A DNA stretch of 17,919 nt, taken from NCBI GenBank assembly GCA_913053815.1, contig CAJXGK010000007.1:1-17919 (forward strand), read 5' to 3'. Positions 1 to 16,013 of this stretch are shown here, in pieces. A model generated the notes under the pieces. That model was not told the DNA's origin and did no database searches. It saw only the letters and a list, made by a program, of their open reading frames with translations. The stretch is from an uncultured Rhodanobacteraceae bacterium (lineage in GTDB: Bacteria > Pseudomonadota > Gammaproteobacteria > Xanthomonadales > Rhodanobacteraceae). The position numbers were made by a program, and so were the translations under genes. Every line of letters begins with the position of its first letter. The first letter of the stretch is position 1.

Positions 1-2
1 AC

Positions 3-593
3 GGATTGGGCGTGCTGCGCGACGAAACGGACGCATGGCGCAACGGCGTCGCCGCCGCCGAGAAGGCCGAGGACTTGGCCGGACGCTCCCGCCTTCAGGT
101 TTGCCAGGCGGTGGACTGCGCCGACTGGCTGCCCCATGACCTGCTCGCCAAGTTGGACCGCTGCCTGATGGCCCACGGCGTCGAGGGGCGCGTTCCTTTC
201 CTCGACGCCTCCGTCGCCGAGATCGCCTTCCGCCTGCCCGACAAACTCAAGATAAAAAACGGGATCATAAACAACGGTGGGGGAAAATGGCTGCTCAGAA
301 AGTGGCTGGAGGACAAGCTTCCCGAAGCGCAGCCTTTTTCCAAAAAGCGCGGCTTCACCGTGCCCGTGGCGGGGTGGATCGCCGCCAAGGGACAAGACCT
401 TGGCCCCCTGGTGGCGAAGCAGCCCTGCGTCCAGGCGCTGTGCCGCCCCGGCGCCGTCGAAACGCTGATCGCCGACCCCGGCGCCAAGGCGGGGAAAGCC
501 GCCTGGAATCTTCTGTTCTATGCGCTTTGGCATAAGATTCACATCGACAACGCGCCCGCCGGCGCAAACGTGTTCGAAACCCTTTCGTCGTAG
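3..593 (+). CDS. asnB: Asparagine synthetase (glutamine-hydrolysing), C-terminal part
   Basis: The reading frame is already open at the window edge, so the N-terminal glutaminase domain and most of the synthetase domain lie outside. The visible 195 or so residues carry the hallmark stretch of the AsnB synthetase domain: DWLPHDLLAKLDR, then AHGVEGRVPFLD, then a lysine-rich KWLLRKW and the FSKKRGFTVPV segment near the acyl-adenylate site. The family makes asparagine from aspartate, ATP and glutamine; in Alphaproteobacteria paralogues of this type often sit in polysaccharide or cell-envelope clusters. The frame ends at a TAG and is followed by a 350-base gap, so it is probably the last gene of its transcript. 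The family assignment is secure. Whether it is the housekeeping enzyme or an envelope-cluster paralogue cannot be told from this end. Confidence 0.88.
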   Translation, partial: GLGVLRDETDAWRNGVAAAEKAEDLAGRSRLQVCQAVDCADWLPHDLLAKLDRCLMAHGVEGRVPFLDASVAEIAFRLPDKLKIKNGIINNGGGKWLLRKWLEDKLPEAQPFSKKRGFTVPVAGWIAAKGQDLGPLVAKQPCVQALCRPGAVETLIADPGAKAGKAAWNLLFYALWHKIHIDNAPAGANVFETLSS

Positions 594-943
594 CCGTTCC
601 TTAGAGCATTTCTCGTTGACGGCGTTTCCGCCATGGGGTCCTTAGCTCGACGACAGCTGGTGCGCCGGATAAGCGGCGGGCCGCTCTTTGCGGCCTTGAG
701 CGCTTCCGTCTAAACCGGATGCGCTTCAAACTTGAATTCACCGCCCTTCAAATTTTTTTAAGGGTGGGCGCCCCTACCCATATAGGCGGGACATAGCCCG
801 CCCTAAAGAGACGTATCCGCCCCCCTAGCGGGTGTTCCCAATTTCGCCGCCTGGAAACATCCTTGTTGGCTCCTGTTTTCCTCGGTTTTATAGTGTCTTC
901 CAAGGGATGGGGCCTTCCCAATGATGCAGGCGGGGAAATCGCG
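594..943. other. Intergenic gap with small dyads
   Basis: No gene is seen in this stretch between the asparagine synthetase and the redox operon. A run of seven T (753-759 area) is followed by two GC-rich dyads, listed separately. A long frame of the next gene extends upstream to about 863, but its residues before the ATG at 944 look non-coding, so I treat that part as leader. The promoter of the redox operon should lie here; I could not pick a convincing -35/-10 pair. Confidence 0.5.
762..802. repeat. Two adjacent GC-rich dyads
   Basis: The first dyad (762-779) can pair GGGTGGG with CCCTACCC-like bases around a 4-base loop, including one G-T pair. The second (785-802) pairs GGCGGG with CCCGCC around ACATAG. 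Neither is followed by a T run on either strand, so they are poor terminators. They may be a short interspersed repeat: the core GGGYGGGCGCCC recurs at 4661-4672. Confidence 0.35.
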
Positions 944-1681
944 ATGAGCAGCGGCAAGAATGCGAAATCCAAGAACAAAAGCACGGCCAAAAAGGCCGAA
1001 GAAGACGCCGCCTTTCGTTTGGTGACCGTCTATATCATGGGCAAGCCCTATAAGGTGCCCGCCGAGGCCACCATCATGGGGGCCATCGAGTACGCCGGCC
1101 AACAGATCATTCGCGGCGCCGGTTGCAGGGAAGGCTTTTGCGGCGCCTGCGGCGCCATCTTCCGTCTTCCCGGCGATTATAAAATTTATTCCGGCCTCGC
1201 CTGCACAACCGTCGTCCAGGAAGGCATGACCCTCACCCAAATTCCGGCCTTCCCCGTTCAGAAGGCGGTCTACGACCTTGAAAAGCTGGAGCCCAACGCC
1301 GCCACCTTCCAGAAGGTCTATCCCGTGGTGTTCCGCTGCGTTTCCTGCAACACCTGCACAAAGGTGTGCCCGCAAGGGCTGCAGGTGATGGACTACGTCA
1401 ACGCCGCCATGCGCGGCGACGTCGAGGCGGTCATGGACCTGTCCTTTGACTGCGTGTGCTGCGGCCTGTGCGCCATGCGCTGTCCGGCCGAGATCGTCCA
1501 GCACAAGGTGGGCATCCTCGGCAAGCGCCTTTACGGCCGTTACCTGCGCAAGCATAGCCCGGAACTGGCCGAACGCGTCAAGCAGATAGAGGCCGGCGTT
1601 TTCGACAAGGAATTTTCCCAATTAATGGCCATGAGCAAAGAGAAGCTGAAAAAGGCCTACTACGATCGGGATATGGAGTAA
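944..1681 (+). CDS. [2Fe-2S] plus 2[4Fe-4S] electron-transfer protein (SdhB/TfrB-like)
   Basis: This 245-residue protein has an SdhB/FrdB-type N-terminal ferredoxin fold with C61, C66, C69 and C87 (GCREGFCGAC ... LACTT) for a [2Fe-2S] cluster. Two classical CxxCxxCxxxCP motifs follow (C132-C142 and C170-C180) for two [4Fe-4S] clusters. Genuine SdhB/FrdB normally carries one [4Fe-4S] and one [3Fe-4S] cluster, so this is a variant, nearer to fumarate-reductase-like proteins that pair with Hdr-type subunits. The start ATG at 944 has GGGGA about eight bases upstream; the first 25 residues are lysine-rich and low-complexity, with no signal peptide. It is the first gene of a four-gene set, 43 bases before a flavoprotein, and probably passes electrons to or from that subunit. 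The substrate is unknown. The cluster content is direct from the sequence; the pairing is inferred. Confidence 0.82.
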   Translation: MSSGKNAKSKNKSTAKKAEEDAAFRLVTVYIMGKPYKVPAEATIMGAIEYAGQQIIRGAGCREGFCGACGAIFRLPGDYKIYSGLACTTVVQEGMTLTQIPAFPVQKAVYDLEKLEPNAATFQKVYPVVFRCVSCNTCTKVCPQGLQVMDYVNAAMRGDVEAVMDLSFDCVCCGLCAMRCPAEIVQHKVGILGKRLYGRYLRKHSPELAERVKQIEAGVFDKEFSQLMAMSKEKLKKAYYDRDME

Positions 1682-1724
1682 CCGAGGTTCTCAGCGCGCC
1701 TAAGGGCGCGATCAGGAGTGTCAA

Positions 1725-3425
1725 ATGTATCCAGAGTACATGGCTCAATCGCTGAAGAAGGTCGTCCAGACCCGAGCCAAACGGCTTGAGCTGGCTAGAA
1801 AGAAAGGGCCGGTCTTTGCCCCCATGAACGCTGATCAGCGTCAGCAAGCGCTGGACAAATATCACCCCGACTACAAATCGGACTCCAAGCAGAAAGTGAA
1901 CGTCGGCCCCAACAAGGGCGAGGCCCTCACCACCGAAGTCGCCAAGATTCTCGAATCCCATTCCTGGGTCGATCCGGAAAAAATTGACCTGGACAATCCC
2001 CACCACGAAACCGACCTGCTGATCATCGGCGGCGGCGGCGCCGGCTGCAACGCCGCCATCACCGCCATGAAGCAAGGCGTAAAATCCTTCATCATCACCA
2101 AGCTTAGGATGGGCGACGCCAACACCATGATGTCCCAAGGCGGCATGCAGGCCGCCGTCTCCACCACCGACACCCCCACCCGGCATTACCTGGACGCCAT
2201 CGGCGGCGGCCACTTCACCAACAAGCCGGAGCTGGTGCGCGCCCTGACCGAGGACGGCCCCGGGGTGGTCAAGTGGCTTGAGGACCTCGGCGTCATCTGG
2301 GACAAACACGAAGACGGATCCATACAGGTCCTCCATGGCGGCGGAACGTCGAGAAAGCGGATGATTTCGTGCCGCGACTACACCGGCGCCATCATCATGC
2401 GCACGCTGATGGACGAGGTGAAGAACCACCCCGGGATGATCACCTACCGTGAATTCCTGCCGGCGCTGGAATTGATCATGGACGTCAATGGGAAATGCGC
2501 CGGCGCCGTGTGCTACAGCCTCGACACCGAGCAGTTCCACATCATCAAGGCCAAGGCGGTCCTCGTCGCCACCGGCGGTTTCGGGCGGCTTCACATCCGC
2601 GGCTTCGCCACCACCAACCATTACGGCGCCACCGGAGACGGCTTGGTCATGGCCTACAGAGCCGGGGCCAAGCTCATGTACATGGACTCGGTCCAGTATC
2701 ACCCCACGGGCGCCGTTTTCCCCGAACAGATCGCCGGCTTCCTGATCACCGAGAAAATCCGCGGCGCCGGCGGCCAGCCCGTGAATAAGGACGGCGAGCT
2801 GTTCGTCTTCCCGCGCGAACCCCGCGACATTGAAAGCTCCGCTTTCATCAAGGAATGCGAAACCGGCATGGGCGTCAAAACCGCCAGCGGCCGCGACGGC
2901 GTCTGGCTGGACTCGCCCTTGATCGATCAAATCCACGGCGAGGGCTACACCATGAAGCAGTTCCCCGCCATGCACCGCCAGTTTATCAAGTACAGCATCG
3001 ACATCATCAAGGATCCCATGCTGGTCTACCCGTCGCTGCATTACCAGAACGGCGGCATCGAGATTAACGACAAATGCGAGACCGGCATCGAGGGACTCTT
3101 CGTCGCCGGCGAAGCCACCGGCGGCGTCCATGGCCGCAACAGGCTGATGGGCAACTCGGTTCTGGACTACAACGTCTTCGGCCGCCGCGCCGGCCAATAC
3201 ACCAGCGAATACGTCAAGAAGGCCAAGACCGGCAAGCTCACCCTCAAGCATATCGACGCCCACGAAAAGGAGATGGATAAAGCAGGCATCTATACGGATC
3301 TGGTGACTCCGGTCATCCTGCCGTCCTATACGCCCGAGGACGTGAAAATTCGCCGCCTCGCCCGCTCAGGAAACGCCCTGGCCAGACATGAAATGCTGAA
3401 AACAAGGGTAAGGCCCTCGGGATGA
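1725..3425 (+). CDS. SdhA/FrdA-like FAD-dependent oxidoreductase, atypical
   Basis: The 566-residue protein belongs to the FAD-binding-2 family (SdhA, FrdA, NadB, TfrA). The dinucleotide motif GGGGAG is at 102-107, QYHPTG at 324-329, RGAGG at 346-350 (where SdhA/FrdA have their catalytic arginine region), HYQNGG at 439-444, and the FAD-capping GEATGGVHGRNRL begins at 462. The histidine that carries covalent FAD in SdhA/FrdA (SHT..AQGG) is replaced: here the region reads NTMMSQGG, as in NadB-like non-covalent enzymes. About 95 basic residues precede the FAD fold, and the C-terminal helical domain is short. AGGAG lies seven bases before the ATG. The gene ends in an ATGA overlap with the diiron protein gene, so the two are probably translationally coupled. 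It likely reduces or oxidises a small carbon-carbon bond substrate; fumarate is only a guess. Confidence 0.85.
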   Translation: MYPEYMAQSLKKVVQTRAKRLELARKKGPVFAPMNADQRQQALDKYHPDYKSDSKQKVNVGPNKGEALTTEVAKILESHSWVDPEKIDLDNPHHETDLLIIGGGGAGCNAAITAMKQGVKSFIITKLRMGDANTMMSQGGMQAAVSTTDTPTRHYLDAIGGGHFTNKPELVRALTEDGPGVVKWLEDLGVIWDKHEDGSIQVLHGGGTSRKRMISCRDYTGAIIMRTLMDEVKNHPGMITYREFLPALELIMDVNGKCAGAVCYSLDTEQFHIIKAKAVLVATGGFGRLHIRGFATTNHYGATGDGLVMAYRAGAKLMYMDSVQYHPTGAVFPEQIAGFLITEKIRGAGGQPVNKDGELFVFPREPRDIESSAFIKECETGMGVKTASGRDGVWLDSPLIDQIHGEGYTMKQFPAMHRQFIKYSIDIIKDPMLVYPSLHYQNGGIEINDKCETGIEGLFVAGEATGGVHGRNRLMGNSVLDYNVFGRRAGQYTSEYVKKAKTGKLTLKHIDAHEKEMDKAGIYTDLVTPVILPSYTPEDVKIRRLARSGNALARHEMLKTRVRPSG

Positions 3426-3958
3426 GCGGACATGACGAACATATTGTTCTGTTGATCCGGGAAATGGTCGATTTGGAGCTTAACGCCAAGCGGTTCTACG
3501 AACACGCCGCCAAGGTGACCCACAACGAAACCGGAAAAAAAATGTTCAAACGCCTGGCCCTTGAAGAGGCCGGACACATCAAGGATGTGGGGGTAATTTT
3601 CGCATCCGCGCTCGGCGGCGACGACTGGAAGGAAATCCTTCAGAGAGAAGTTAAGAATCACGCGCCCTCCAAGTTGGTGGCCAAGTTCGAGGAGGAAGTC
3701 CAGGAATGGGGAAGCGAAAACAAGGCCGATGAGACCGAGGCCCTGAGAATGGCCATGGACTTGGAAAGGCGGGCCATCAAGTTCTTCGAAGACTTGTCTA
3801 AAAAATACGTGGACAATCCGGCGGCGCGCAAGCTGGCCGCCAAGCTGGCCGATGAGGAAAAGTTCCATTACGACATGCTGCAAGCCCAGCATGACAGCGT
3901 CATGAACGTGGGCATCTGGCTCGACGAAGCCGAGTTCAGGATGGACGGCAAATTCTAA
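3422..3958 (+). CDS. Rubrerythrin/ferritin-like diiron protein
   Basis: A 178-residue, highly charged, all-helical protein with two copies of the ferritin-like half-site: E19 in LELNAKRFYE plus E49/H52 in EEAGHIKD, and E115 in DLERRAIKFFE plus E146/H149 in DEEKFHYD. This is the diiron ligand layout of rubrerythrin-family proteins. No C-terminal rubredoxin Cys4 domain is present, so it would need an external electron donor; the two Fe-S proteins in the same operon are obvious candidates. Rubrerythrins typically reduce peroxide in microaerobic or anaerobic cells. The start overlaps the flavoprotein stop by four bases (ATGA), and its own TAA overlaps the next ATG by one base, so these genes should be made together. 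Iron storage or a dedicated diiron oxidase role are alternatives. Confidence 0.82.
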   Translation: MSGHDEHIVLLIREMVDLELNAKRFYEHAAKVTHNETGKKMFKRLALEEAGHIKDVGVIFASALGGDDWKEILQREVKNHAPSKLVAKFEEEVQEWGSENKADETEALRMAMDLERRAIKFFEDLSKKYVDNPAARKLAAKLADEEKFHYDMLQAQHDSVMNVGIWLDEAEFRMDGKF

Positions 3959-4365
3959 TGGCCTTTAATATTTCCCAATCCAAGGCCGCCGCCAAGTTCG
4001 TCGATCAGGTTGAGCGCCTCAGCGGACAGGACCTGTTGTCATGCTATCAGTGCGGCAGATGCACCGCCGGCTGCCCGATGGCCATCCACATGGACATCCT
4101 GCCCAATCAGATCATCCGCTTCGCCCAGTTGGGAATGCGCGAGGAGTTGTTGGGCGCCAAATCCATTTGGCTCTGCGTCACCTGCTACACCTGCAACAGC
4201 CGTTGCCCCAAGGGCGTGCGTATCGCCGAGGTCATCGAAGCCTTGCGCCAAATCAACCTGCGCGGCCGCAACGACCACCTTCTGGTGGAGGACTTGAGCG
4301 AACAGCAGTTGGAAACCATCCCCCCCATCGCCCTCATCTCCGCCATGCGGAAATTCACCTCTTAA
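3958..4365 (+). CDS. HdrC-like 2[4Fe-4S] protein
   Basis: This 135-residue protein has two [4Fe-4S] motifs, C29-C32-C35-C39 (CYQCGRCTAGCP) and C73-C76-C79-C83 (CVTCYTCNSRCP), and the PKGVRIAEVIEALR helix typical of subunit C of heterodisulfide reductase. In Hdr complexes HdrC relays electrons to HdrB, which carries CCG-domain catalytic clusters. No HdrB or CCG-domain frame is found after it: the stop at 4365 is followed by a tRNA gene. It starts at TAATG, sharing one base with the stop of the diiron gene. In this setting it may connect the flavoprotein and Fe-S subunit to a quinone- or thiol-linked partner encoded elsewhere. The HdrC family call is firm; the partner is unknown. Confidence 0.83.
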   Translation: MAFNISQSKAAAKFVDQVERLSGQDLLSCYQCGRCTAGCPMAIHMDILPNQIIRFAQLGMREELLGAKSIWLCVTCYTCNSRCPKGVRIAEVIEALRQINLRGRNDHLLVEDLSEQQLETIPPIALISAMRKFTS

Positions 4366-4462
4366 AATCCCCAAGGCTTTAACGGCGAAGTCAAAGAGAG
4401 CAATAGTGCGGATTTAGCGTTGCGGACGCCGTAAGCCTCGATTACCTTTCGCCTCGTCCAGC

Positions 4463-4552
4463 GGAGGGATGGCCGAGTGGCTTAAGGCGCACGCTTGGAA
4501 AGCGTGTGTACGTTTACGCGTACCGTGGGTTCGAATCCCACTCCCTCCGCCA
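4463..4552 (+). tRNA. tRNA-Ser (anticodon GGA)
   Basis: The acceptor arm pairs GGAGGGA (4463-4469) with TCCCTCC (4542-4548), followed by discriminator G and an encoded CCA. The anticodon stem is CACGC/GCGTG with loop TTGGAAA, giving GGA at 4497-4499, which reads UCC/UCU serine codons. The T arm GTGGG-TTCGAAT-CCCAC and a long variable arm (GTACG..CGTAC region), as expected for class II tRNA-Ser, are all visible. Confidence 0.97.
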
Positions 4553-4570
4553 TTCCCCCCGAGGGGTAAT
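4552..4570 (+). terminator. Possible weak terminator after tRNA-Ser
   Basis: ATTCCCC and GGGGTAAT can pair around CCGA with one bulged A, and a short T-containing run (TTTCTC) follows. The stem is short and the T run interrupted, so this is only a candidate for tRNA transcript termination. Confidence 0.25.
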
Positions 4571-5083
4571 TTCTCATACTTCCCCGCCGGTTTTCGTCGT
4601 ATGCTCAGTTGCCGCCGGCATGCCCATCCTGGCGGCCGAGAACATCAAGGGGGAGGTTTTGGGCGGGCGCCCACGCCGTCCGGGGGGCGTGCTTCGCCCT
4701 TGAGGTCGCCTATAGCCGTCCAGCCGGCTTTGCCCTGGACCCGCCGGCGACACCAAGGTAGCCTCGGCTGATGGCCGGCGGGATTTCCGGAAAGCACAGG
4801 AAAAGTTGACCTTGAATGATTTGCCAGTAACCTGATATCGTCTTGCTAAGAGGTATCGTTTGCAGGCCTTGCTGGTTGTTATTTTGAATCAATTTTATAC
4901 CAGAAAATGATTGAAGGCGCCCCAGTAATAGGCCGCAATAGTGGAATAATCCGCACAATCCCACAATTTTGCAAGAGACTCTCTTGTTAGCCGTTCAGTA
5001 TTTTGCCCTACGCAGCCGCCAATATCGGCATCCGCAAGACCTGATACTGCATGAGTTGGAAATATGTTCGGGAGATTTAGTTA
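4571..5083. other. Gene-free gap before the radical SAM gene
   Basis: Frames here are short and none resembles a family. The first half (to about 4790) is GC-rich and has a dyad CACGCC/GGCGTG at 4672-4691 next to the GGGCGGGCGCCC core also seen near 762. The second half (about 4800-5080) turns markedly AT-rich, a change that fits a promoter or upstream regulatory region for the radical SAM gene. I found no clear riboswitch or operator. Confidence 0.45.
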
Positions 5084-6550
5084 ATGCGGCGAAGATTAGT
5101 CCTCACCTATCCAAATCTCCTTTGGCTAAAGTTCGACCCGGTTACGACCTGGAACCTCAGCCCCGCCACCCTGTGCCAATTGGGCGCCGTCGCCCGGGAC
5201 GTGGTGGACGTCAGCGTCGTCGACGGCCAATTCCTCAACCTGTCAATTGACGAATACGCCGAAAAGGTTACCGAGAACGATCCGGATTTCGTTGGCGTAT
5301 CTCTGTTGTCGTCTGAGTACGGCCAAGCACTCCACATCGCCGCCGAAGCCATCAAGAAACGCAAACCTGACACCATCATCATCGCCGGGGGGGTCCACGT
5401 TACCAGGGAATATGAACAGGTCATCGCCGATAAAACAATCGACTACGCAGTCCGCGGCGATGGCGAATACATCTTAAGGGACCTGCTGGCGCATCTGTGC
5501 GGAGAGGGACCGATGCCGGAAACCGGGGTCGTTTACCGTGATGGAGGAAAAGTCGTCACCCTCCCCCAGGCCATCGTCGAGAACCTGGAAGATTTACCGA
5601 TGCCCGATTACGGCCTCTTCGACATGGCCGACTTCGCCCGGCGGGCCTACGCCTACCGCCTTGGCCCGACCAATCCGCCCGAATTGCCGGGGGTGCGCAT
5701 CACCATCACGCGGGGATGTCCCTTGGAATGCTCGTTCTGCCAGGTGAAGCTCATCAGCGGCGCCCGAATCCGCGCCCGCAGCGCCGATCAGGTCGTCGAG
5801 GAGTTGGCCTTGCTCAGGGACCGCTACGGGGTGAAGTCCGTAATTTTTGACGACGACAACCTGATTTCCAGCAAGCGCTACTTCAAGGACCTGCTGTCCC
5901 GGATGATCGACGCCCGGCTCGACATAAAATTCACGGTCGGGGCGTTCGCCCTATTCTCCCTTGATGATGAGATGCTGGATTTGCTTGCCGAGGCTGGGTG
6001 CGTCGGCATGAACATCGCCATCGAGTCAGGCAGCCAGCGGGTGCTTGACGAAATCGTCAGAAAACCCATAAAGTTGCAGGCCGTCCCGGAGTGGATCAGG
6101 AAAATCAAAGCGAAGGGAATTTTTGTCGCCTCGAATTTCATGCTTGGCTTTCCTGGCGAAACATGGGACGAAATCCGGCAAACCGTTCACTTTGCCGAGA
6201 CGTGCGGGGCCGAATACGTGAAATTCTTCATGGCCACTCCTTTGCCTGACACCGCCCTCTGGGAGATGGCGGAGAAACAGGGCGTTCTCAAGATATCCAA
6301 AAAACTCGAGGAAAAATGTGAGCGCTGGGGCTCAAGGTCAGGCCATGGGACCGCCGAGATCATTTCTGACGAATGGACGCCCGAGGACATTAGGATTTTG
6401 CGCGCCTACGAATGGGACCGGATCAATTTCGGCGATCCCGTCAAACGCCGCCGCACAATTGAAATCTGGAAGTCCGACGAAGAGACCATTAACCGCATCC
6501 GCAAGGACACGCGGGATTCCATAACCTTTGGATCAGGGGGGCGTCATTGA
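5084..6550 (+). CDS. B12-binding-domain radical SAM enzyme
   Basis: The 488-residue protein has the order of a cobalamin-dependent radical SAM enzyme. An N-terminal Rossmann-like B12-binding domain covers residues 1-150 or so (DPDFVGVSLLSSEYGQA, then IIIAGGVHVT near 98-107). The radical SAM core follows, with the CX3CX2C cluster motif CPLECSFC at C212, C216 and C219. Downstream core features include VIFDDDN, AIESGSQRVLDEI, NFMLGFPGET and FMATPLPDT. The usual DxHxxG cobalamin motif is not seen, as in several B12-radical SAM groups with base-off binding. These enzymes methylate or rearrange unactivated carbons in lipids, cofactors and natural products. The next gene follows within three bases, a TIGR04372-type glycosyltransferase-like protein, which suggests a role in glycan or glycolipid modification (inference). 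GGGAGA lies about ten bases before the ATG. Confidence 0.85.
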   Translation: MRRRLVLTYPNLLWLKFDPVTTWNLSPATLCQLGAVARDVVDVSVVDGQFLNLSIDEYAEKVTENDPDFVGVSLLSSEYGQALHIAAEAIKKRKPDTIIIAGGVHVTREYEQVIADKTIDYAVRGDGEYILRDLLAHLCGEGPMPETGVVYRDGGKVVTLPQAIVENLEDLPMPDYGLFDMADFARRAYAYRLGPTNPPELPGVRITITRGCPLECSFCQVKLISGARIRARSADQVVEELALLRDRYGVKSVIFDDDNLISSKRYFKDLLSRMIDARLDIKFTVGAFALFSLDDEMLDLLAEAGCVGMNIAIESGSQRVLDEIVRKPIKLQAVPEWIRKIKAKGIFVASNFMLGFPGETWDEIRQTVHFAETCGAEYVKFFMATPLPDTALWEMAEKQGVLKISKKLEEKCERWGSRSGHGTAEIISDEWTPEDIRILRAYEWDRINFGDPVKRRRTIEIWKSDEETINRIRKDTRDSITFGSGGRH

Positions 6551-6552
6551 AC

Positions 6553-7281
6553 ATGGACGCCGAGCTACTCGGCAAACAGGCCCAGTATTATTACGAGAAG
6601 GGTGAGTTGGACGCCGCCATCAGCAAGCAGATGGCCCTCATACGCTTGACGCCGGATAAATATGACGCAAAGGCCTGCAAGGACCTCGCCTATTATCTTT
6701 GGATGGGAGGACGATACGAAGAATCAAACAAACTGTTTCTTCAAATGCATAACCTTAAGATAAAGACGATCGACCTAATTGCCGGGAAAAGCGGCCAGCC
6801 GAAACGGGCGCTGTACTACTACTTCGACGGCGCCCCCATCCGCGCCATCGGCGAGTTCTGCCTAGCCTCCGACACCCTGTTCAAGGCGGTGAAGCTGGGG
6901 CTGCTTCCCGATATCGAGTACGTCTTTCTCCTCCATGACAAGGTGGGGCTGAACAAGAACATCCTGGAATACTGGGGGCGATACTTTTTCATTGTCCACG
7001 ACGCAGACCAGATAGCGGCGCTGAGCGAGGCGTACAAGCACTGCCAATTCGGTGAAACCTTCGTTCCAACGCCGGACACTGACGGCGGCTTCTATTACAT
7101 GGCCTGGGAGGCGGTCAACCGGCGCTGGTCGGAACAGGAGAACCCGCCCCTGCTGACGCTCGATGAGCCGCACAATGAGGAAGGCCGCAAGGTCTTGAAG
7201 GAATTAGGCATGCCCAAGGACGCCTGGCATAGTCAATGGTGGCGCATGACTGGGTGTAATAGTGCCGCAATTGCCGTGTGA
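6553..7281 (+). CDS. TIGR04372-family glycosyltransferase-like protein, 3'-truncated at a junction
   Basis: The N-terminus is a TPR-like helical repeat (YYYEKGELDAAISKQMAL.., then LAYYLWMGGRYEESNKLF). The middle (RAIGEFCLASDTLFKAVKLG) and the segment NRRWSEQENPPLLTL followed by LKELGMPKDAW match the layout of TIGR04372 proteins, which normally continue into a Phe-Val-x-Leu-His-Val-Arg-Glu-type segment and a roughly 200-residue catalytic-like domain. Here the match stops after DAW (codon 7225-7227) and the frame runs 18 alien codons to a chance stop. The protein is therefore a truncated half. The start ATG at 6553 is preferred over TTG at 6547; a GGGGGG ribosome site lies about ten bases upstream. 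Pairing with the radical SAM gene suggests one transcript. The family call rests on recalled motifs only. Confidence 0.7.
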   Translation: MDAELLGKQAQYYYEKGELDAAISKQMALIRLTPDKYDAKACKDLAYYLWMGGRYEESNKLFLQMHNLKIKTIDLIAGKSGQPKRALYYYFDGAPIRAIGEFCLASDTLFKAVKLGLLPDIEYVFLLHDKVGLNKNILEYWGRYFFIVHDADQIAALSEAYKHCQFGETFVPTPDTDGGFYYMAWEAVNRRWSEQENPPLLTLDEPHNEEGRKVLKELGMPKDAWHSQWWRMTGCNSAAIAV

Positions 7282-7398
7282 AGCTCCGCAACCCGGTTCA
7301 CCGCGCTCGAGCACTCGCACTTGCAAACCCTCACGAGCCAGCGCCAAAGCACTGGCCAGGCCGACGACCCCCCCGCCCAGAATTACCACATCATCCAT
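7204..7398 (-). pseudogene. DadA-like FAD-dependent amino-acid oxidoreductase, N-terminal fragment
   Basis: The start ATG at 7398 has a good ribosome site (AAGGAGT, seven bases upstream). The protein opens with a textbook FAD-binding fold, VVILGGGVVGLASALALA then VRVLERG, followed by ASHGNCG and TPSHAPPLTMPGV, as in DadA-type D-amino-acid dehydrogenases. After PGV (codon 7219-7221) only LGHA and a stop remain, in sequence that belongs to the + strand gene of the other segment. Roughly 350 residues of the normal protein are missing. The full enzyme would deaminate D-amino acids and feed electrons to the respiratory chain; this fragment cannot. It is a truncation by rearrangement or assembly, not gradual decay. 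Confidence 0.8.
7219..7227. other. Junction between two unlike genome segments (9-base overlap)
   Basis: GACGCCTGG encodes Asp-Ala-Trp of the + strand TIGR04372 protein and, on the other strand, Pro-Gly-Val of the DadA-like protein. Both proteins match their families up to these bases and not beyond. The simplest reading is that both parent sequences shared these nine bases and were joined here, either in the cell or by an assembler. Confidence 0.75.
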
Positions 7399-7930
7399 CG
7401 ACGCACTCCTTCTTTATCGGATAAACCTACCCTGACCGGTCTGCCACCACACGTCGACAAATATCGAACGCCAATATACTTACGCGTATATTCTCGACAG
7501 GGCAGTGAGGCAAGCCTATAAATGTAAATAATCTTCACGATTAGTACTACCCTGCTTGAAGTATGCCAAGAAGCAGGGGTATCCAGGTACGACGTAACCC
7601 CATCGCAGCCAAACCCGACACACTGCGGGTGACGCCGCACAAGGCCCGCAACGACCCCAACTTCAGTGTGCTTCAGCAAGAGTGGTTCACCATACCGGCC
7701 AACCCGAGCACCTTGATGCATGCAACTGTCCAGACAAACGCATGGCATCGTGTCCTAGACATCCAACTCGATCAACAGCTGACCGAATTCAACCACTCCC
7801 CGGCTACGGGAACCGTCATACAAATTGTCTGCCACGACTGGGCCATAAGCAAGCCGGCTTCCCCGGCATTTCCCAAGCCAATCTCAAAGGATTACCTTTC
7901 ACGCTAGTCATCCCCACACTCTAGCCGCCC
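7399..7930. other. Gap upstream of the DadA fragment and the NlpC gene
   Basis: No recognisable gene. A frame of 114 codons runs at 7563-7907 on the + strand but has no family resemblance, biased composition or ribosome site that I can support. The stretch 7430-7560 is AT-rich and holds a dyad (listed separately) and is probably the control region for the divergent - strand gene. Confidence 0.45.
7473..7492. promoter_or_regulatory. AATATAC-N6-GTATATT dyad, possible operator
   Basis: Two perfect 7-base arms, AATATAC and GTATATT, flank TTACGC about 75 bases upstream of the DadA-like start. The position and symmetry suit a regulator binding site. No known consensus is claimed. Confidence 0.35.
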
Positions 7931-8419
7931 ATGTACCGACGTCGGGTTATATATTTCCTGATTCCACTCGTAACTATGGTACTGGCCGCCTGTGCAAGTG
8001 CACCGCCTCCACGACCTGAGGCCGGTAGCGTCCAAGCCATAGCGGCTAATGCCGTACTGTTTCGCTCTATAAGTCTGGTTGGTACCCCTTATCGGTGGGG
8101 TGGCAATACACCGCACAGCGGCTTTGATTGCAGCGGCCTGGTTGATTATGTGTTCCGTAGCGTAGCGGGGATCAAACTACCTAGAACCACTGCGGAAATG
8201 AGCCACATGCAGGGAACTCATCTCCGCCGCCACGAACTGGCCCCGGGAGATCTGGTATTTTTCGATACCCTCGGCGCGTACGTCAGTCATGTTGCCATCT
8301 ACGTAGGCAAGAATCGTTTTGTCCATGCCCCGAACAGCGGCGGCAGAGTGCGGTTGGACACCCTGAACAATCCGTACTGGCGCAAGCATTTCGCCTACGG
8401 CCTGCGTATTCTGCGCTGA
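7931..8419 (+). CDS. NlpC/P60 family lipoprotein endopeptidase
   Basis: A 162-residue cell-wall hydrolase of the NlpC/P60 (Spr/MepS-like) type. The N-terminus is a lipoprotein signal peptide with lipobox LAAC, so C21 would be lipidated. The catalytic set is in order: C67 in FDCSGLV, H120 in SHVAIYVG and H132 in FVHAPNSGG, preceded by the typical GTPYRWGGN. Family members cut peptide cross-links in peptidoglycan at the outer-membrane face, allowing wall growth. Length is normal for the family. It stands alone between two gaps, and no partner gene is adjacent. The call is firm; the precise bond cut is not shown by the sequence. Confidence 0.93.
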   Translation: MYRRRVIYFLIPLVTMVLAACASAPPPRPEAGSVQAIAANAVLFRSISLVGTPYRWGGNTPHSGFDCSGLVDYVFRSVAGIKLPRTTAEMSHMQGTHLRRHELAPGDLVFFDTLGAYVSHVAIYVGKNRFVHAPNSGGRVRLDTLNNPYWRKHFAYGLRILR

Positions 8420-8872
8420 TCCCCACTGCTGGTAGAGACACCCTGATTATTCTGTAACGAAACCGTTGAGTCAGAAGCCATCATTGGGACATCTATAAAA
8501 GCCGCTTCCCTGAGAGGATTTTCGAAACAGATCATACGGATAGGCGAGGAGTGGGTGGGTACACAACGCCGCACAAGGAAATGATAAGTATGAAGGACAT
8601 CGGTTTTGTCCGTGGCCGTGGTTCGCGGTGCGAAGCAAGAGTCATGAATAGCTTGCGGGGCAGCAACGCGAACCCCAACGTGGCGAAAATCACTGGGGTA
8701 CCCACCGCCGGGGGACGGGCGCTTATTGTCGTCATCGCCGTCCAACAAGCATGTTTGTGGCGGCGGATTCACAGAAAAGATTGAATTCGACTATGAAATA
8801 TTCAAAAGATGAATGGCTATTTCGTGCTGGCATCATAAACCGACAAGTCCGAACACCATGACTGAATGCAAC
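8420..8872. other. Gap without convincing gene
   Basis: Overlapping frames exist on both strands (for example 8551-8784 + and 8395-8772 -), but neither has a recognised motif or good ribosome site, and each is full of rare-looking residue runs. I see no clear terminator after the NlpC gene or after slyD. Confidence 0.4.
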
Positions 8873-9364
8873 TCAGGGCCCGGAGTGCCCATCCGGGCCA
8901 TGCGCGTGACGAGGTTGCCGCTCTTCGGCAGTAGCTTCACGTACGGAAATGATTTCGATGTTGAAATGCAGTGTCTTGCCTGCTAATGGGTGGTTAGTAT
9001 CCACATCAATCATGGTCATTCCGACCTTATGCACAGTAACCGCCTGGCGCCCGCCATCTTGCAAAGCCAGTATGGTGGTATCCCCAACCTTGAGCCGCCC
9101 GGGCCGATGAAAGTATTTTTTGGAGACCCGCTGAATCGCCCCATCACGACGTAAACCATAGGCCTTATCGGGTGCAACGGTTACATCGAAATGGTCATTT
9201 TCCACATGTCCGAGTAAGGCCTCTTCAAGCCCCGGAATGATCCCTCCAGACCCCACCAGCACCTGCATCGGATTACCCCGCCCATGCGAACTATCAATCA
9301 GCACCCCGTCCTCGCTGGTCAAACGATAATGGAAACTGATGACATGATCTTTAGCAATCTGCAT
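8873..9364 (-). CDS. slyD: FKBP-type peptidyl-prolyl isomerase SlyD
   Basis: The 163-residue protein starts with the SlyD pattern DHVISFHYRLTSEDGVLIDSS, then GNPMQVLVGSGGIIPGLEEAL, the FKBP half that binds prolyl substrates. An insert-in-flap chaperone domain follows (about 70-120), closing with VDTNHPLAGKTLHFNIEI, which completes the FKBP fold. The tail is short and histidine-bearing (RHAHGPDGH), a reduced form of the metal-binding tail of E. coli SlyD, which supplies nickel for hydrogenase. It would act in the cytoplasm as a folding helper and perhaps metal store. The gene is monocistronic as far as can be seen. Confidence 0.93.
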   Translation of the reverse strand: MQIAKDHVISFHYRLTSEDGVLIDSSHGRGNPMQVLVGSGGIIPGLEEALLGHVENDHFDVTVAPDKAYGLRRDGAIQRVSKKYFHRPGRLKVGDTTILALQDGGRQAVTVHKVGMTMIDVDTNHPLAGKTLHFNIEIISVREATAEERQPRHAHGPDGHSGP

Positions 9365-10105
9365 AAGGGAAGCCCATAAAGGTGAACATCATAGAACGGA
9401 TAAGCTGCACAGCAACTCGGCCAGCGGATATGGAAGTTTTTTTAGGTAATCCTGACGACACAGCTCCGATGAGTTGCCGCTAAGGTTTCCAACCAGGTTC
9501 ACTACAGTGATTTTTATCCTTTGGTGACACGGCACTTTCCAGCCCGGATAGTCGGGCCAAACCATCCATCACAACTGGAATAGACCACCATACCGGAGCG
9601 CAGACATGGTCGGCGAACATCATCAAAATCCTGGCGGACCCAACCTTGGTAACCCAACTGGATCGAAAACTGTCAAACCTTATCCACCGCATAGATTGAA
9701 GAACCCATTTCAGAACCTGGGTCTCTAAGGGAACCGTTTGCCCTTGATGGGTATCCGGGGCATGCTCACCGTGAGCGGTACGCGCCCACAGGCGTCTCCC
9801 ATCATATCGATATCACCTGGTTAGGAAGATATCGCAAACGGCAGTATTGTTCTTCACCCATGAAGCTGATCCGGCACACCCCCTTCACGACAGACACGGA
9901 ATAACGTTTCCCCGTAGTCCATCCGGCCCACGACCGCCCCATTTCTACGGTCCCTACTATGCAACGCTAGCAGCTTGCCCGCCCATCAATATCCCTGTGT
10001 TTTTTGCAGAGGGATGTGGGTTACCCGAGTCCGCTGGAAAATCCGTTTCCATGCCAGTGACACGACGGGTAGCATTCTCATGGATTACCGGCTTTAGAGA
10101 CCTCA
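9365..10105. other. Long gap, possible decayed sequence
   Basis: About 740 bases with no recognisable gene. Short frames at 9480-9692 (-) and 9847-10245 (+) have no family resemblance; the latter runs out of frame into trxC. A near-palindrome GCTCAC-C-GTGAGC sits at 9764-9776. The upstream region of trxC shows only a weak AGAGA ribosome site. Confidence 0.4.
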
Positions 10106-10552
10106 ATGAACCCCTCTCTGATCGAAATCGTTTGCCCGCACTGCACTGCTATCAACCGGGTAGCGGAAGAAAAACTGGACGACCACCCTCATTGTGGGAA
10201 GTGCCACCAGACACTATTCGACGGCCGTCCCACCCCACTGAATGAGACTAATTTTGACACCTTAGTAAACCGTAGCAGTATCCCTGTTGTAGTCGATTGC
10301 TGGGCAGCCTGGTGTGGTCCATGCCGGATGTTCGCACCGGTTCTGGAGCAGGCCACACAACAATTTGAGCCCCGCTTGCGATTCGCCAAGCTGGATACTG
10401 AAGCAAATCCCGGTATCGCAACCCGCCTTGGCATTCGTAGCATCCCCACTTTGCTAGCATTCCGCATGGGCCAGGAAGTGGCGCGTATGTCTGGGGCCAT
10501 GCCTTTGTCCCAATTTACTTCATGGTTACGCCAGCAGGGCCTGCTCACCTGA
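10106..10552 (+). CDS. trxC: Thioredoxin 2 (TrxC)
   Basis: A 148-residue thioredoxin with the extra N-terminal zinc finger that defines TrxC: C10-P-H-C13 and C30-G-K-C33. The thioredoxin fold follows, with active site W69-C-G-P-C73 and the cis-proline loop SIPTLLAF. It reduces cytoplasmic disulfides and in E. coli belongs to the peroxide response. It could supply electrons to the thioredoxin-coupled type of arsenate reductase encoded at 16014, though nothing in the sequence links them. It converges on the small membrane protein gene with only 13 bases between. Confidence 0.95.
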   Translation: MNPSLIEIVCPHCTAINRVAEEKLDDHPHCGKCHQTLFDGRPTPLNETNFDTLVNRSSIPVVVDCWAAWCGPCRMFAPVLEQATQQFEPRLRFAKLDTEANPGIATRLGIRSIPTLLAFRMGQEVARMSGAMPLSQFTSWLRQQGLLT

Positions 10553-10565
10553 GTCGGCGGGGAAT

Positions 10566-10778
10566 TCAGTACCAGCGCCTCCACAGCCACGGAAAGGCCA
10601 TGAGGGCAATGGATACCAGTGCCAGAAGATAACCATTACTAATCACGAAACTCACTGCCAGCAAGCCGATTCCTGCAAACAGAGCTGGAAAATCCCCCTG
10701 GCGCTTGCCATAGATAAAGTAACCGATACCGATTGATCCGTAGATTGAGCTCCACAGAATTGCCGATGGGGAAAGCAT
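10566..10778 (-). CDS. Small three-helix membrane protein
   Basis: A 70-residue, very hydrophobic protein with three likely membrane segments (ILWSSIYGSIGIGYFIYG, then FPALFAGIGLLAVSFVIS, then YLLALVSIALMAFPWLW). The start at 10778 is chosen over 10793 because GCAGGAG lies eight bases before it. The pattern resembles short conserved proteins annotated as hypothetical or as amino-acid transport protein in Gammaproteobacteria, but I cannot give a function. It is convergent with trxC. Confidence 0.65.
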   Translation of the reverse strand: MLSPSAILWSSIYGSIGIGYFIYGKRQGDFPALFAGIGLLAVSFVISNGYLLALVSIALMAFPWLWRRWY

Positions 10779-11065
10779 TCGTGTCTCCTGCATAGCCGCT
10801 TGTCATGGCTTGGACAGTACATTCTGAGCATCGTTCCGCCTACCAGTGGATCGCTCAATATCGGAAATCATCCCCCCCAGGGCACCTCGTAAAACCGTAG
10901 CGAGTGGTTCGAGCGCAAGCCACTCTGTCGTGGATCTCCGAGACCTATTAGGGTGATAGTGAAGAGTGTGCGAGGACGCAACACAGCAAAGTAACAGCAT
11001 GGTGGCTTTCTTCGAGGATCCCACCGGTATGATGAGCTTGTATTTTTCATACTTGGGACCCCGCT
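10779..11065. other. Gap between divergent small membrane genes
   Basis: The 287 bases should contain divergent promoters for the small membrane protein (-) and the MAPEG gene (+). A - strand frame at 10803-11024 has a signal-like start but no ribosome site or family likeness, so I do not call it. Confidence 0.35.
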
Positions 11066-11461
11066 ATGTTTGCTTACCGTTGGCCTCTGCTGATTGCCCT
11101 GTCAAGTATTCTATTACTGCAGTTGACGACCTATTGGGTCGCCTGGGCGCGGGTTCGCTATGGAGTGAAGGCCCCCGCCATCAGCGGACACCCCACCTTT
11201 GAACGAATTTATCGAATCCAGATGAATACGCTCGAAGCCCTGGTCCTATTCCTGCCTGTGCTCGGACTGGCCACCTGGTTCGGCAACCCCTGGATTGCCG
11301 GCGGGCTGGGTACCATCTGGCTGCTCGGCCGCATCGCCTACCTGTTTATGTACGTACATAATCCGGGTAGCCGGGGGCCGGCCTTCACACTCGCCAGCCT
11401 GGCCCAGATCGCTCTGCTAATCCAGGCGGTAATCGCATTGGCCAGCAGCGTTCCACACTAA
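11066..11461 (+). CDS. MAPEG family integral membrane protein
   Basis: A 131-residue protein with four hydrophobic segments and the family hallmark ERIYRIQMNTLEAL (ERxxRxxxNxxE) after the first helix; GRIAYLFMYV and NPGSRGP match the later loop of the family. Eukaryotic and bacterial MAPEG proteins (microsomal glutathione transferase and relatives) conjugate glutathione to, or reduce, lipophilic electrophiles and lipid peroxides at the membrane. The conserved residues for glutathione binding appear present, but activity cannot be assumed. No operon partner is visible. Confidence 0.85.
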   Translation: MFAYRWPLLIALSSILLLQLTTYWVAWARVRYGVKAPAISGHPTFERIYRIQMNTLEALVLFLPVLGLATWFGNPWIAGGLGTIWLLGRIAYLFMYVHNPGSRGPAFTLASLAQIALLIQAVIALASSVPH

Positions 11462-11490
11462 GTCCGGCATGGAGCCTGTCTCCGGTGGGT

Positions 11491-11715
11491 TCAATAGCGA
11501 ACCGTTTTTACCAGCCAATGCTTGGCGATCTCACCATGCAACCGACCCCGGGCTCTGGCCAGAAGCAGCATCACGAAGGGGATGCCAACAAGCCGCACCG
11601 CCAGACCCAAACTCAGACGGATTCCTCCGATGATCTCCAGCCCCCCCATCGCCTTCAGGCTCATCGGCCATTGGACCAGGCTCTGTCTCAACTTTGCCAT
11701 CCGAACGTGATCCAA
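11491..11715 (-). pseudogene. DoxX-like membrane protein remnant
   Basis: The 74-codon frame holds GLEIIGGIRLSLGLAVRLVGIPFVMLLLA, compatible with the GLLEL-GG-LL-LG-xTR core of DoxX proteins, but the upstream helix with the usual N-terminal part and the downstream helices are missing. DoxX members are quinone-related or thiosulfate-oxidation membrane subunits, about 130-150 residues. Either this is a decayed fragment or a small unrelated membrane protein; I lean to the first. No good ribosome site is seen. Confidence 0.35.
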
Positions 11716-11827
11716 TAGGCAGCGACTGTTTTGTCATTCTGACTAACTCAGGGATCCTGCCGCCGTTACGCTTTCCGTCCCCAGCAGCCCCTTCCACCCG
11801 CTCATGATCACCATGGAGTTATCACCC

Positions 11828-12982
11828 ATGCCTTCCCATTCCAGCCCACCCCATCGCTACCTGGGTGCCATCCTCCCCCTGCTGCTGCTTACTCTCGGCA
11901 TCGTTACCACCCCGGCCTTGGCCTCCGTACCCAAGGTGAAAGTTGCTGCTCCGATTCACCATGTCTTCGTGATCGTTCTTGAAAACGAACCCTATCAAGC
12001 CAGCTTTGGCAAGCACTCTCCTGCCCCCTATCTAGCCAAGGTGCTTCCCGCAAAAGGGGCGCTGCTGAAGCAGTATTACGCTATCGGCCACTACAGCCTA
12101 GATAACTATATCGCTATGGTCAGTGGCCAAGCCCCCAACGCCGCAACACAAAACGACTGTCCTGTGTACAGTGAGTTTAAACTGAGTTCCAGCACCCCCG
12201 GATCCTACGACCAAGCACTGGGCCAGGGCTGTATCTACCCATCCTGGGTCAAGACTGTAGCCAACCAGCTACAGGCCAAGGGCGATACATGGAAAGGATA
12301 CTTCGAAGATATGGGGCGTGATCTCAAGCGCGAGTCGGCAACCTGCGCCCATGTTCCGATCGGCGCCAAGGACTGGACCGAACATGCCGCGGCCAATGAT
12401 CAGTACGCGGCCAAACACAATCCGTTTGTCTATTTCCATTCGATCATCGACAACCAGGCCAATTGCGATACCCATGTCGTGAACCTGGCCCAGCTTAAAA
12501 CTGACCTTCGATCCATCCGCACCACCCCCAACTACGCCTTCATCGTCCCCGATCTTTGCCATGATGGGCACAATGCGCCCTGCGCCAATGGCCAACCCGG
12601 TGGTCTGGTTTCGGTTAACCAGTTCTTAAAAGTCTGGGTACCGAAGATCCTGGCCGCTCCGGCTTTCCGTAAAGACGGTCTACTGCTGATTACTTTTGAC
12701 GAAGGCAGCGCAAGCGATGGCCGGGCCTGTTGTCACGAGATGAAACTTCCGGGTGGTCCCAAACCAGGCCGCCTCGGCCCGGGTGGTGGACGTATCGGTG
12801 CCGTAGCCATCTCCCCTTTTATTCGCCCAGGTACCGTCTCGGAAGTCCCCTACAATCACTATTCGTTCCTACGTACAGTCGAGGATTTCTTCGGACTCTC
12901 GCATCTTGGCTATGCCGCTACGCCGGGGTTGAGAACATTTGGTCGTGATGTATTTACCGGGGCGCACCGTAAAAGCCCGTGA
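11828..12982 (+). CDS. Secreted phosphoesterase family protein (acid phosphatase/phospholipase C-like)
   Basis: The 384-residue protein has a Sec signal peptide (hydrophobic LLLL core, cleavage near ALA-S at 32/33). The mature part follows the phosphoesterase family (phospholipase C, AcpA): VLENEPY at 50-56 for a metal-binding Glu/Asn pair, HYSLDNYIAMVSGQ, PDLCHDGH, LLLITFDEG and NHYSFLRTVEDFFGL near the end. These residues line a metal-dependent phosphatase/lipase site in the alkaline-phosphatase-like fold. It would act in the periplasm or outside the cell on phosphomonoesters or phospholipids. Several cysteines (DCPVY, QGCIY, ATCAH, NCDTH, CCHE) suggest disulfides. The start at 11828 is chosen because GGAG lies nine bases upstream; frames begin earlier at 11804 and 11813. 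It stands alone. Confidence 0.88.
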   Translation: MPSHSSPPHRYLGAILPLLLLTLGIVTTPALASVPKVKVAAPIHHVFVIVLENEPYQASFGKHSPAPYLAKVLPAKGALLKQYYAIGHYSLDNYIAMVSGQAPNAATQNDCPVYSEFKLSSSTPGSYDQALGQGCIYPSWVKTVANQLQAKGDTWKGYFEDMGRDLKRESATCAHVPIGAKDWTEHAAANDQYAAKHNPFVYFHSIIDNQANCDTHVVNLAQLKTDLRSIRTTPNYAFIVPDLCHDGHNAPCANGQPGGLVSVNQFLKVWVPKILAAPAFRKDGLLLITFDEGSASDGRACCHEMKLPGGPKPGRLGPGGGRIGAVAISPFIRPGTVSEVPYNHYSFLRTVEDFFGLSHLGYAATPGLRTFGRDVFTGAHRKSP

Positions 12983-13096
12983 CTCGCACACGCCACCGAC
13001 ATCGGTTTATTCACAGCCCATTCATGACATCCCAAGATCCAATCCCCATCACTGGTCTCGGAACCGTTAGTTTGCCGCCTTGATAAAAGCTACCAT

Positions 13097-13120
13097 ACCC
13101 TGCGGGCTGTCCCGCAGGGT
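13097..13120. repeat. Perfect 10-base hairpin
   Basis: ACCCTGCGGG and CCCGCAGGGT pair perfectly around CTGT. No T run follows on either strand, so it is not a standard terminator. It may be a REP-like palindrome: a RAYT transposase remnant lies in the same window, although a GTAG-type tetranucleotide in the usual position is not clear. It lies just downstream of the IS630 remnant. Confidence 0.6.
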
Positions 13121-13204
13121 CAAAACACATGTTGCAGCACTCTTTTCTCAATAGTTCTCGATGGCAGATGGCACGGGTCTTATTGATCCGGAACCGATTA
13201 TCGC

Positions 13205-13467
13205 TCAAGCCGCGTTCTTGACATGCGGATCACCGAAGAACGCACGAACCCGTTTCGGTTGCGTTTCGAGGCCGATCATGTGGGCCTCCGTAGCATGCTT
13301 GGATTTGGCCTTGGTGCGCAGCGCAACACGGGTCCCTAACGCCTGCTTGAGACGGCGTTGAGACACTCGTCAGGATTGAGTTCGGGACTTAGCTGGGCAG
13401 ATTAGAACACCTCGACCTGCTCGCTATGCTTGGCCAGCCAAGCCTTCACCGGCTTACCGTGGTGCAG
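13205..13467 (-). pseudogene. IS630-family transposase, C-terminal remnant
   Basis: Read on the - strand from about 13467, the sequence gives LHHGKPVKAWLAKHSEQVEVF, a stop where Tyr is expected, SPELNPDECLNA, a frame change, then LKQALGTRVALRTKAKSKH and ending QPKRVRAFFGDPHVKNAA. This is the last third of an IS630 DDE transposase, including the SPELNPDE catalytic glutamate block. At least one nonsense change and one frameshift mark it as dead. The 5' two thirds are missing. It abuts the truncated CBS gene, so its insertion or later deletion probably removed the CBS 3' end and whatever lay beyond. Confidence 0.82.
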
Positions 13468-13514
13468 CCCTCGGGCTTGCCCGGCTGGGCACCCTCGGGG
13501 CTGAGAAAGAAAAT

Positions 13515-13736
13515 TCAGAAGTTTTCCCTCCAAAGTGATTCACGTGACTCAAGCCGCTCATCGGCGGCGCGGTGAACCAAGTCCCCAGCGGTCACAACGC
13601 CGAGCAAGCGCTGCTGTTCATCCACAACCGACACGCCGTTGATGCGGTGAGCGAGCAACAGCCGCGCAATGGTGTCGACCGGAGTGTCTGGACAAACAGT
13701 CATGGGGTTGCGGGTCAGCAGGTTTCGAATGTATAT
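13515..13736 (-). pseudogene. CBS-domain protein of the ars operon, truncated
   Basis: The frame matches one CBS domain: MYIRNLLTRNPM-like start, TVCPDTPVDTIARLLL, HRINGVSVVDEQQRLLGVVTAGDL, then LESRESLWREN and a stop at 13515. The C-terminal second half is missing, ending a few bases before the IS630 remnant. In most versions the first codon before Tyr-Ile-Arg would be ATG; here it is ATA (13736-13734), eight bases after GGAGAG, so the start codon also looks mutated. A restart at ATG 13703 would lose the first strand. CBS proteins sit between arsA and the pump gene in operons such as that of Ochrobactrum tritici; their role is not settled. Confidence 0.75.
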
Positions 13737-13751
13737 GGATAGGCTCTCCGG

Positions 13752-15506: not shown

Positions 15507-15555
15507 AGTGCATCCTCTTAAATCTATTTGATGAAAAGCACGATGCAACCCCGCA

Positions 15556-15927
15556 TTAGCAGGCGCAACCACCGCCACAGCAACCGTCCTGAGACGAGCC
15601 CGGTGCTGCGACCGGGGTTTCCGGCACGATGTCTAGCCAACGCGCCAGTTCGGCGCGCTGCGGATAACGTCCCGCCAACGCAATCTCGCCATCGATCAGA
15701 ATCAATGGCAATGCGTCTTCCCCGGAACGCTCCAGCAAGCCTTTGACGATGGCATTGTCGGCAAAGACCATCGGTTGTTGACTGAGATTGAACCGTTCGA
15801 TCCTGGCACCTTGTTGCTTTGCCCAATCGACATCGGCGGCAAAGGTCACCAATTGCTGATCGACATCCACGCCGCACACGCCAGTGCTACAACACATGGC
15901 AGGTTCAAAGATTGCAATTTTTTTCAT
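15556..15927 (-). CDS. arsD: ArsD arsenic metallochaperone
   Basis: The 123-residue protein begins MKKIAIFEPAMCCSTGVC, giving the essential C12, C13 and C18 that bind As(III) and pass it to ArsA. C-terminal vicinal pairs are present (CC at 116-117, C121 and C123), as in R773 ArsD. The thioredoxin-like fold shows in LPLILIDGEIALAGRYP. AGGAGC lies six bases before the ATG. It precedes arsA in the same transcript; a hairpin terminator candidate lies just upstream, between it and arsC, which may tune the arsD-arsA level. Confidence 0.96.
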   Translation of the reverse strand: MKKIAIFEPAMCCSTGVCGVDVDQQLVTFAADVDWAKQQGARIERFNLSQQPMVFADNAIVKGLLERSGEDALPLILIDGEIALAGRYPQRAELARWLDIVPETPVAAPGSSQDGCCGGGCAC

Positions 15928-15961
15928 TTCAATGCTCCTAATAAATTTGAAATGTTGCTCA

Positions 15962-15998: not shown

Positions 15999-16013
15999 CA
16001 TAGGCTCCAATTC

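Follow-up and report, generated by a model that had tools for sequence, protein, structure and literature searches.

Here we analyse a 17,919-nucleotide stretch of DNA (the window; contig CAJXGK010000007.1 of assembly GCA_913053815.1) from the genome bin of an uncultured Rhodanobacteraceae bacterium. It carries four tightly packed genes for a TfrB/SdhB-like Fe-S protein, a TfrA/FrdA-type flavoprotein, a rubrerythrin-like protein and an HdrC-like protein. We consider it likely that these are the leading part of the tfr/hdr/kor/flx operon of the reductive tricarboxylic acid (rTCA) cycle, with TfrA acting as a soluble fumarate reductase that receives its electrons from Hdr-type Fe-S proteins. A four-gene unit that looks odd at first is thus tied to a published CO2-fixation cluster, in which the Krebs cycle is run backwards. 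The window copy is a truncated and displaced copy of this known module, ordinary in kind, and a decaying diiron site in the rubrerythrin-like family is a side finding.

To place the four genes we compared gene order across relatives. A protein search with the rubrerythrin-like protein returned 31 homologues including the window's own, and 24 of these 31 were built into a profile. In contigs limited to one genome per species the profile found 104 loci, the best 80 of which were used; 24 of these 80 carry, beside the rubrerythrin gene, a TfrA more than 60% identical to that of the window. Searching 369 genomes from the bin's class for TfrA (three matches besides the bin at E up to 1e-150) added three further loci, for a set of 27 close relatives. 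hdrB is the next cluster gene after hdrC in 25 of the 27, across a gap of about 0.6 kb in L015. The two exceptions are L129, whose contig ends after rbr, and the Aminicenantes-labelled L075, which has tfrB-tfrA-rbr with hdrC, hdrB and kor not detected. Beyond hdrB, hdrA is reached in 23 of the 25 stretches, with korD, korA, korB and korC in between (in L024, korB is visible only as an open reading frame belonging to the korB cluster); in L027 and L029 the contig breaks off within korA. mvhD then follows in 22/23 and a FlxB-like gene in 21/23, L051 and L024 ending earlier. Hidden Markov model (HMM) typing of L020 identified HdrB (CCG domain; best NCBIfam matches SdhE and HdrB), the delta, alpha, beta and gamma subunits of 2-oxoglutarate:ferredoxin oxidoreductase (OGOR) type, an HdrA2-like and an FlpD/MvhD-like protein. 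The name FlxB-like rests on position and on the published cluster, because the last L020 gene matched 4Fe-4S domains only.

The TfrB-TfrA-Rbr-HdrC order recurs in loci labelled Rhodospirillales, Gallionella/Sideroxydans, Hydrogenophilales, Nitrosomonadales and Gammaproteobacteria, so the arrangement is not a matter of chance; this is the repeated adjacency across lineages that an earlier reading of the window, made from its letters alone (the sequence-only reading), had said would support its proposal. That reading had also stressed that HdrB is absent. This is true of the window, where homologues of HdrB, KorA, KorB, KorC and HdrA were not found at E < 0.1, but within the family such an absence is exceptional, and an unnamed complex without HdrB is ruled out by the presence of hdrB after hdrC in nearly all close relatives. 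An absent partner on a single contig of a metagenome-assembled genome (MAG) can thus mislead. We regard it as unlikely that the four genes are a naturally stand-alone module, that is, a cytosolic fumarate reductase whose HdrC draws on an unlinked donor and which works without HdrB or Kor. In the window the operon does stop at hdrC, a tRNA gene coming 98 bp later, and L075 has tfrB-tfrA-rbr alone; set against this are the 25 relatives that run on into hdrB, and the rest of the operon may be elsewhere in the window's true source genome.

The suggestion that the genes form no named complex does not stand, as the cluster has been published. The excerpted text of PMC6315080, from 2019, describes conserved rTCA clusters, containing aclAB, korABCD, tfrAB and flxABCD-hdrABC, in tubeworm symbionts, Thioflavicoccus mobilis and the MAG RIFOXYD12_FULL_61_37. 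It names rbr in the legend of the cluster figure, and suggests a complex that hands electrons to OGOR and fumarate reductase. The operon thus largely has a name already, although that excerpt contains no biochemistry of the complex. One of our close relatives, L012, is contig MGZB01000055 from the same MAG; it has the same gene order and a TfrA 72% identical to the window's. In Endoriftia, korABCD is located between hdrA and hdrBC, according to the excerpt of PMC11636981. Our loci extend the rTCA cluster to genomes labelled Gallionella, Sideroxydans, Hydrogenophilales and Rhodospirillales; among the papers listed by literature searches that paired Gallionella or Gallionellaceae with rTCA terms, none had a title or abstract opening describing the cluster there.

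The open reading frames confirm the four genes where the sequence-only reading had put them (Table 1), and their spacings of 43, -4 and -1 bases support its view that they are a single transcription unit. The first gene begins at an ATG in a frame already open from a TTG at 863, and scans of 594-5084 for promoters and terminators gave signals no stronger than those in shuffled sequence. HMM scans assigned the four proteins, in order, to Fe-S dicluster plus 2Fe-2S, FAD_binding_2, Rubrerythrin and HdrC-like Fe-S dicluster domains. The TfrB [2Fe-2S] ligands are C61, C66, C69 and C87, with [4Fe-4S] sets at 132-142 and 170-180; the HdrC sets lie at 29-39 and 73-83. Taken over both proteins, the cysteine positions therefore bear out one [2Fe-2S] motif and four [4Fe-4S] motifs, and the cluster cysteines are conserved throughout the aligned relatives. 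HdrC scored 86.4 bits against TIGR03290 (cut-off 160), with both [4Fe-4S] motifs present. The flavoprotein is of the FAD-binding-2 type, as proposed, matching PF00890 at E 3.4e-72.

Alignment of the window TfrA with FrdA showed that the dicarboxylate-site residues H326, T328, E343, R367, H439 and R473 are retained; we take their roles, and the FrdA numbering, to be as in the E. coli enzyme. The site is conserved across 46 relatives, except for a single gap at H439, another at R473 and a serine in place of Thr328 in two distant rows. Of the two substrates proposed earlier, an unsaturated acid is supported and would most likely be fumarate, whereas a thiol-linked substrate does not suit an active site of dicarboxylate type. 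At the position of the FrdA covalent-FAD histidine the window has Asn133, and asparagine occupies it in 44/44 ungapped rows. PF02910, the succinate dehydrogenase (SDH) C-terminal domain, had no match in TfrA at E up to 0.01. The N-terminal extension lies outside the FAD domain and is conserved, in an alignment of the window with 23 of the 27 close relatives (minus L006, L058, L027 and L029) and 15 of 19 distant ones (minus L117, L118, L120 and L123). The AlphaFold model of TfrA is of moderate confidence (mean pLDDT 75.7; weak at about 132-165 and 201-218), and its top match in the PDB is E. coli FrdA (TM 0.61). In the TfrA tree the window groups with its close relatives, apart from a sister subfamily, with support of 100/100, the branching inside the clade leaving its exact place unsettled.

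In a sample of 398 Pseudomonadota genomes, the TfrA matches other than the bin's own came from 22 genomes with this sister subfamily, whose TfrA is 46-49% identical. A TfrB-like gene adjoins it in 18 of 19 fetched loci (L119 starts at a contig edge), and neither rbr nor hdrC was found in the short flanks of the 19. korA- and korB-like genes lie downstream in the three sister loci examined at length. The HMM-typed run in L131 is acnB, mdh, fum, tfrB, tfrA, sucC, sucD, korA, korB, and the TfrBA pair therefore sits between fumarase and succinyl-CoA synthetase.

ATP citrate lyase is a marker of the rTCA cycle. In a six-frame search its domain PF16114 was found in 22 of 27 genomes tested, as against 0/14 controls; the 27 comprise 23 behind fetched loci (22 with tfrA plus L014, and without L027 and L029), three family-f206 genomes with tfrA, and G066 with the sister pair. 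The gene lies on the tfrA contig, about 4 kb away, in G765, G671 and G560, and it was found in 0/13 genomes of the bin's genus, although the true host of the operon may lie outside that genus. That TfrA and TfrB work chiefly as a succinate dehydrogenase, with the TCA cycle running oxidatively or reversibly, we judge quite unlikely. The sister pair stands beside sucCD and korAB, usable in either direction, and five of the 27 genomes gave no ATP citrate lyase match; the remaining 22 did, however, and the covalent-FAD histidine, which FrdA needs for succinate oxidation, is absent.

These data allow us to propose how the rTCA operon might work. TfrA would reduce fumarate to succinate on FAD, and the TfrB [2Fe-2S] and [4Fe-4S] clusters would carry the electrons to it, which fits the soluble flavin-to-Fe-S relay of the sequence-only reading. 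TfrB would in turn take electrons from HdrC and, where the operon is complete, also from HdrB as part of an electron-bifurcating HdrABC-MvhD-FlxB module, a module that would also serve the OGOR KorABCD. The rubrerythrin-like protein probably began as an oxygen or peroxide protector of oxygen-labile operon proteins, and in some lineages may have become an accessory part for which iron was no longer needed. What the data show directly is which genes are present and in what order, that active-site residues and cluster ligands are retained, and that the genes are linked to others of the rTCA cycle; the direction of the reaction, the route of the electrons, the formation of a complex and the part played by the rubrerythrin-like protein are inferred from this.

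Several points weigh against this assignment. The putative electron path is drawn from genes, not from biochemistry. hdrB, kor, hdrA and ATP citrate lyase are missing from the window, and none of close type is in the bin. The genomes tested without an ATP citrate lyase match are L005, L006, L022, L062 and L075, the last of which is also the locus where hdrC and kor went undetected. In the excerpt of PMC11636981, the Endoriftia cluster genes share an expression pattern, tfrAB excepted. Because the copy in the window stops short of hdrB, and the DNA around it is foreign to the bin, the remaining operon genes may be located elsewhere in the true host or may have been lost.

The third protein matched only Rubrerythrin, PF02915, in Pfam (38.4 bits; cut-off 22.8), and a rubredoxin domain is therefore absent, as the sequence-only reading had held for its diiron-type protein. 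Its predicted model has a four-helix ferritin-like fold (pLDDT 81.0; tail 165-178 below 50); the top PDB matches are manganese catalase and bacterioferritins, none at E < 0.001. Based on the rubrerythrin motif, the presumed diiron ligands are E19, E49, H52, E115, E146 and H149, all kept in the window protein. Among the 27 TfrA-linked relatives, all six are kept in 10 and at least one is changed in 17. Arg replaces His52 in 11; at His149, Gln is found in 13 and Arg in 4; Glu49 has become Asp in 5 (conservative) and Gly in 1; and a few other ligand changes occur besides. In contrast, the 56 other rubrerythrin loci have zero substitutions at the six sites and up to two gaps; they include L014, where the rest of the operon is present and tfrA is missing from the fetched stretch.

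For the degenerate loci the median dN/dS of the rubrerythrin-like protein was 0.163 (73/120 pairs), indicating purifying selection, compared with 0.149 for HdrC (118/120 pairs) and 0.073 for TfrA (111/120 pairs). The intact-ligand set gave a higher value, 0.354, from 8/28 pairs only. These medians cover 16 of the 17 degenerate loci (minus L062) and 8 of the 10 intact ones (minus L006 and L075), with pairs at dS 0.1-1.5. Ligand loss thus shows no sign of relaxed selection, in a comparison of unmatched sets. The 80 loci were retrieved with a search pattern that included the C-terminal tail, which biases its conservation among them; the three loci recovered through TfrA have EFRQDGKF or EFRLDGKF at this place.

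The new detail here is that many operon-linked relatives keep the rubrerythrin-like protein under purifying selection despite an incomplete set of diiron ligands. It seems to us very improbable that the genes make up a relay whose diiron arm actively reduces peroxide and whose substrate might be thiol-linked. The ligands are intact in the window protein, and the non-operon relatives often lie near apparent oxidative-stress genes, read by eye (in the 56 loci, genes resembling desulfoferrodoxin 15, IscS 12, flavodiiron protein 10, Fur/PerR 10, ferritin 7). The genes belong, however, to a published rTCA cluster, the active site argues against a thiol-linked substrate, and the ligands are incomplete in most operon-linked relatives, so the peroxide-reducing arm proposed earlier is doubtful even though its six ligands are there in the window. 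As a tentative idea, which we think may well be wrong, the rubrerythrin-like protein could have started as a diiron peroxidase and then become a subunit with a structural or docking role in a Tfr-Hdr-OGOR carbon-fixation supercomplex. The iron ligands would then decay stepwise without loss of the fold, the C-terminal tail or the position between tfrA and hdrC, and the window would represent the iron-competent state, cut off from hdrB and kor. Retention without the full ligand set offers a concrete test of subunit versus peroxidase. Separately, by eye, in L025, L033, L048, L056 and L069 (Stahlbacteria- and WOR-3-labelled MAGs) the rubrerythrin subfamily occurs among desulfoferrodoxin-, TusA-, DsrE-, IscS- and IscU-like genes.

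We also evaluated the origin of the DNA. The bin is 81% complete and consists of 437 contigs, of which the window is C7. From 7208 to 17919 it matches genus-mates, G010 best (74-98%), while 1-7207 had no match in 12 other genomes of the genus except for the tRNA (70-81% over its length), in a comparison that scored 23 candidate places per genome. No TfrA was found at E up to 1e-100 in 60 relatives. With 18 other contigs of the bin as reference, the tetranucleotide correlation of 1-7207 was 0.609, lower than for any of the 31 control pieces (mean 0.867, minimum 0.697), and that of 7208-17919 was 0.933. The junction, at 7200-7240, cuts a DadA-like FAD oxidoreductase gene (identified by eye) after about 68 codons. 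This gene is whole in G010 (L093 9765-11021); its remainder was not found in the bin, itself incomplete. A second tRNA-Ser(GGA) is present on contig C67. The missing genus matches, deviant tetranucleotides, second tRNA and gene-cutting junction together make the operon look foreign to the bin, and the genus matches, the TfrA search and the tetranucleotides rule out an ordinary native locus of the genus. The stretch may be part of a chimeric contig or a lateral acquisition, the data fitting both. HdrA- and HdrB-like (C42) and KorA-like (C179) genes of the bin were set aside as missing partners, being only 33-37% identical.

Table 1. Features of the window.
Feature	Position	Strand	Description
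TfrB/SdhB-like Fe-S protein	944..1681	+	245 aa; one [2Fe-2S], two [4Fe-4S] motifs; CCG (HdrB-like) domain absent
TfrA/FrdA-type flavoprotein	1725..3425	+	566 aa; FAD_binding_2; ~93-residue N-terminal extension; without SDH C-terminal domain match
Rubrerythrin-like ferritin-fold protein	3422..3958	+	178 aa; six presumed diiron ligands intact; rubredoxin domain absent
HdrC-like protein	3958..4365	+	135 aa; two [4Fe-4S] motifs; window copy without hdrB after it
tRNA-Ser(GGA)	4463..4552	+	starts 98 bp past hdrC; differs from tRNA-Ser(GGA) on bin contig C67
Stretch that looks foreign to bin	1..7207	no strand	composition and missing genus matches; native part from ~7208

Other features were seen in the window and bin. 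At 5084-7281 a B12-binding radical SAM protein (488 aa) overlaps a 244-aa protein at 6547-7281, for which a protein search returned only itself; a protein 97% identical to the radical SAM protein is present on another contig. Short stretches at 8606-8824, 10878-10990 and 17859-17919 (the last at the contig end) recur in many bin contigs at 71-98% identity and resemble dispersed repeat families. An arsenic set (ArsR-type regulator, low-molecular-weight phosphatase/ArsC-like protein, ArsD and ArsA) lies at 13752-16900 on the minus strand. The bin's HdrB-like gene (33%) and a 377-aa HdrA-like gene (33%) are close together on C42 (L154, G000:C42, 3568-7786), a pair that is possibly of the sHdr-type sulfur-oxidation set.

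Compared with known systems, the window TfrA shares the FAD_binding_2 domain and dicarboxylate-site residues of E. coli FrdA/SdhA (1kf6), but it lacks the covalent-FAD histidine and PF02910, has its N-terminal extension and comes without a membrane anchor gene. Thiol:fumarate reductase TfrAB of Methanobacterium/Methanothermobacter is the top NCBIfam match of both window proteins (NF004900, NF004898), although the cut-offs are missed (TfrA 333.1 of 718 bits, TfrB 40.6 of 385) and the TfrA match spans positions 6-425 of 546. The methanogen TfrB has a C-terminal CCG (HdrB-like) half, before which the window TfrB stops, whereas HdrC and HdrB are separate genes in the window's relatives. TfrBA pairs in TCA gene runs of other Pseudomonadota (such as L130 and L131) share the N-terminal extension and active-site residues with the window, but rbr and hdrC do not appear in their short flanks. 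The rTCA cluster, as given in the excerpt of PMC6315080, additionally holds hdrB, kor, hdrA, flx and acl, none of them in the window or, in close type, in the bin; with it the window shares tfrA, tfrB, rbr and hdrC, here lying adjacent.

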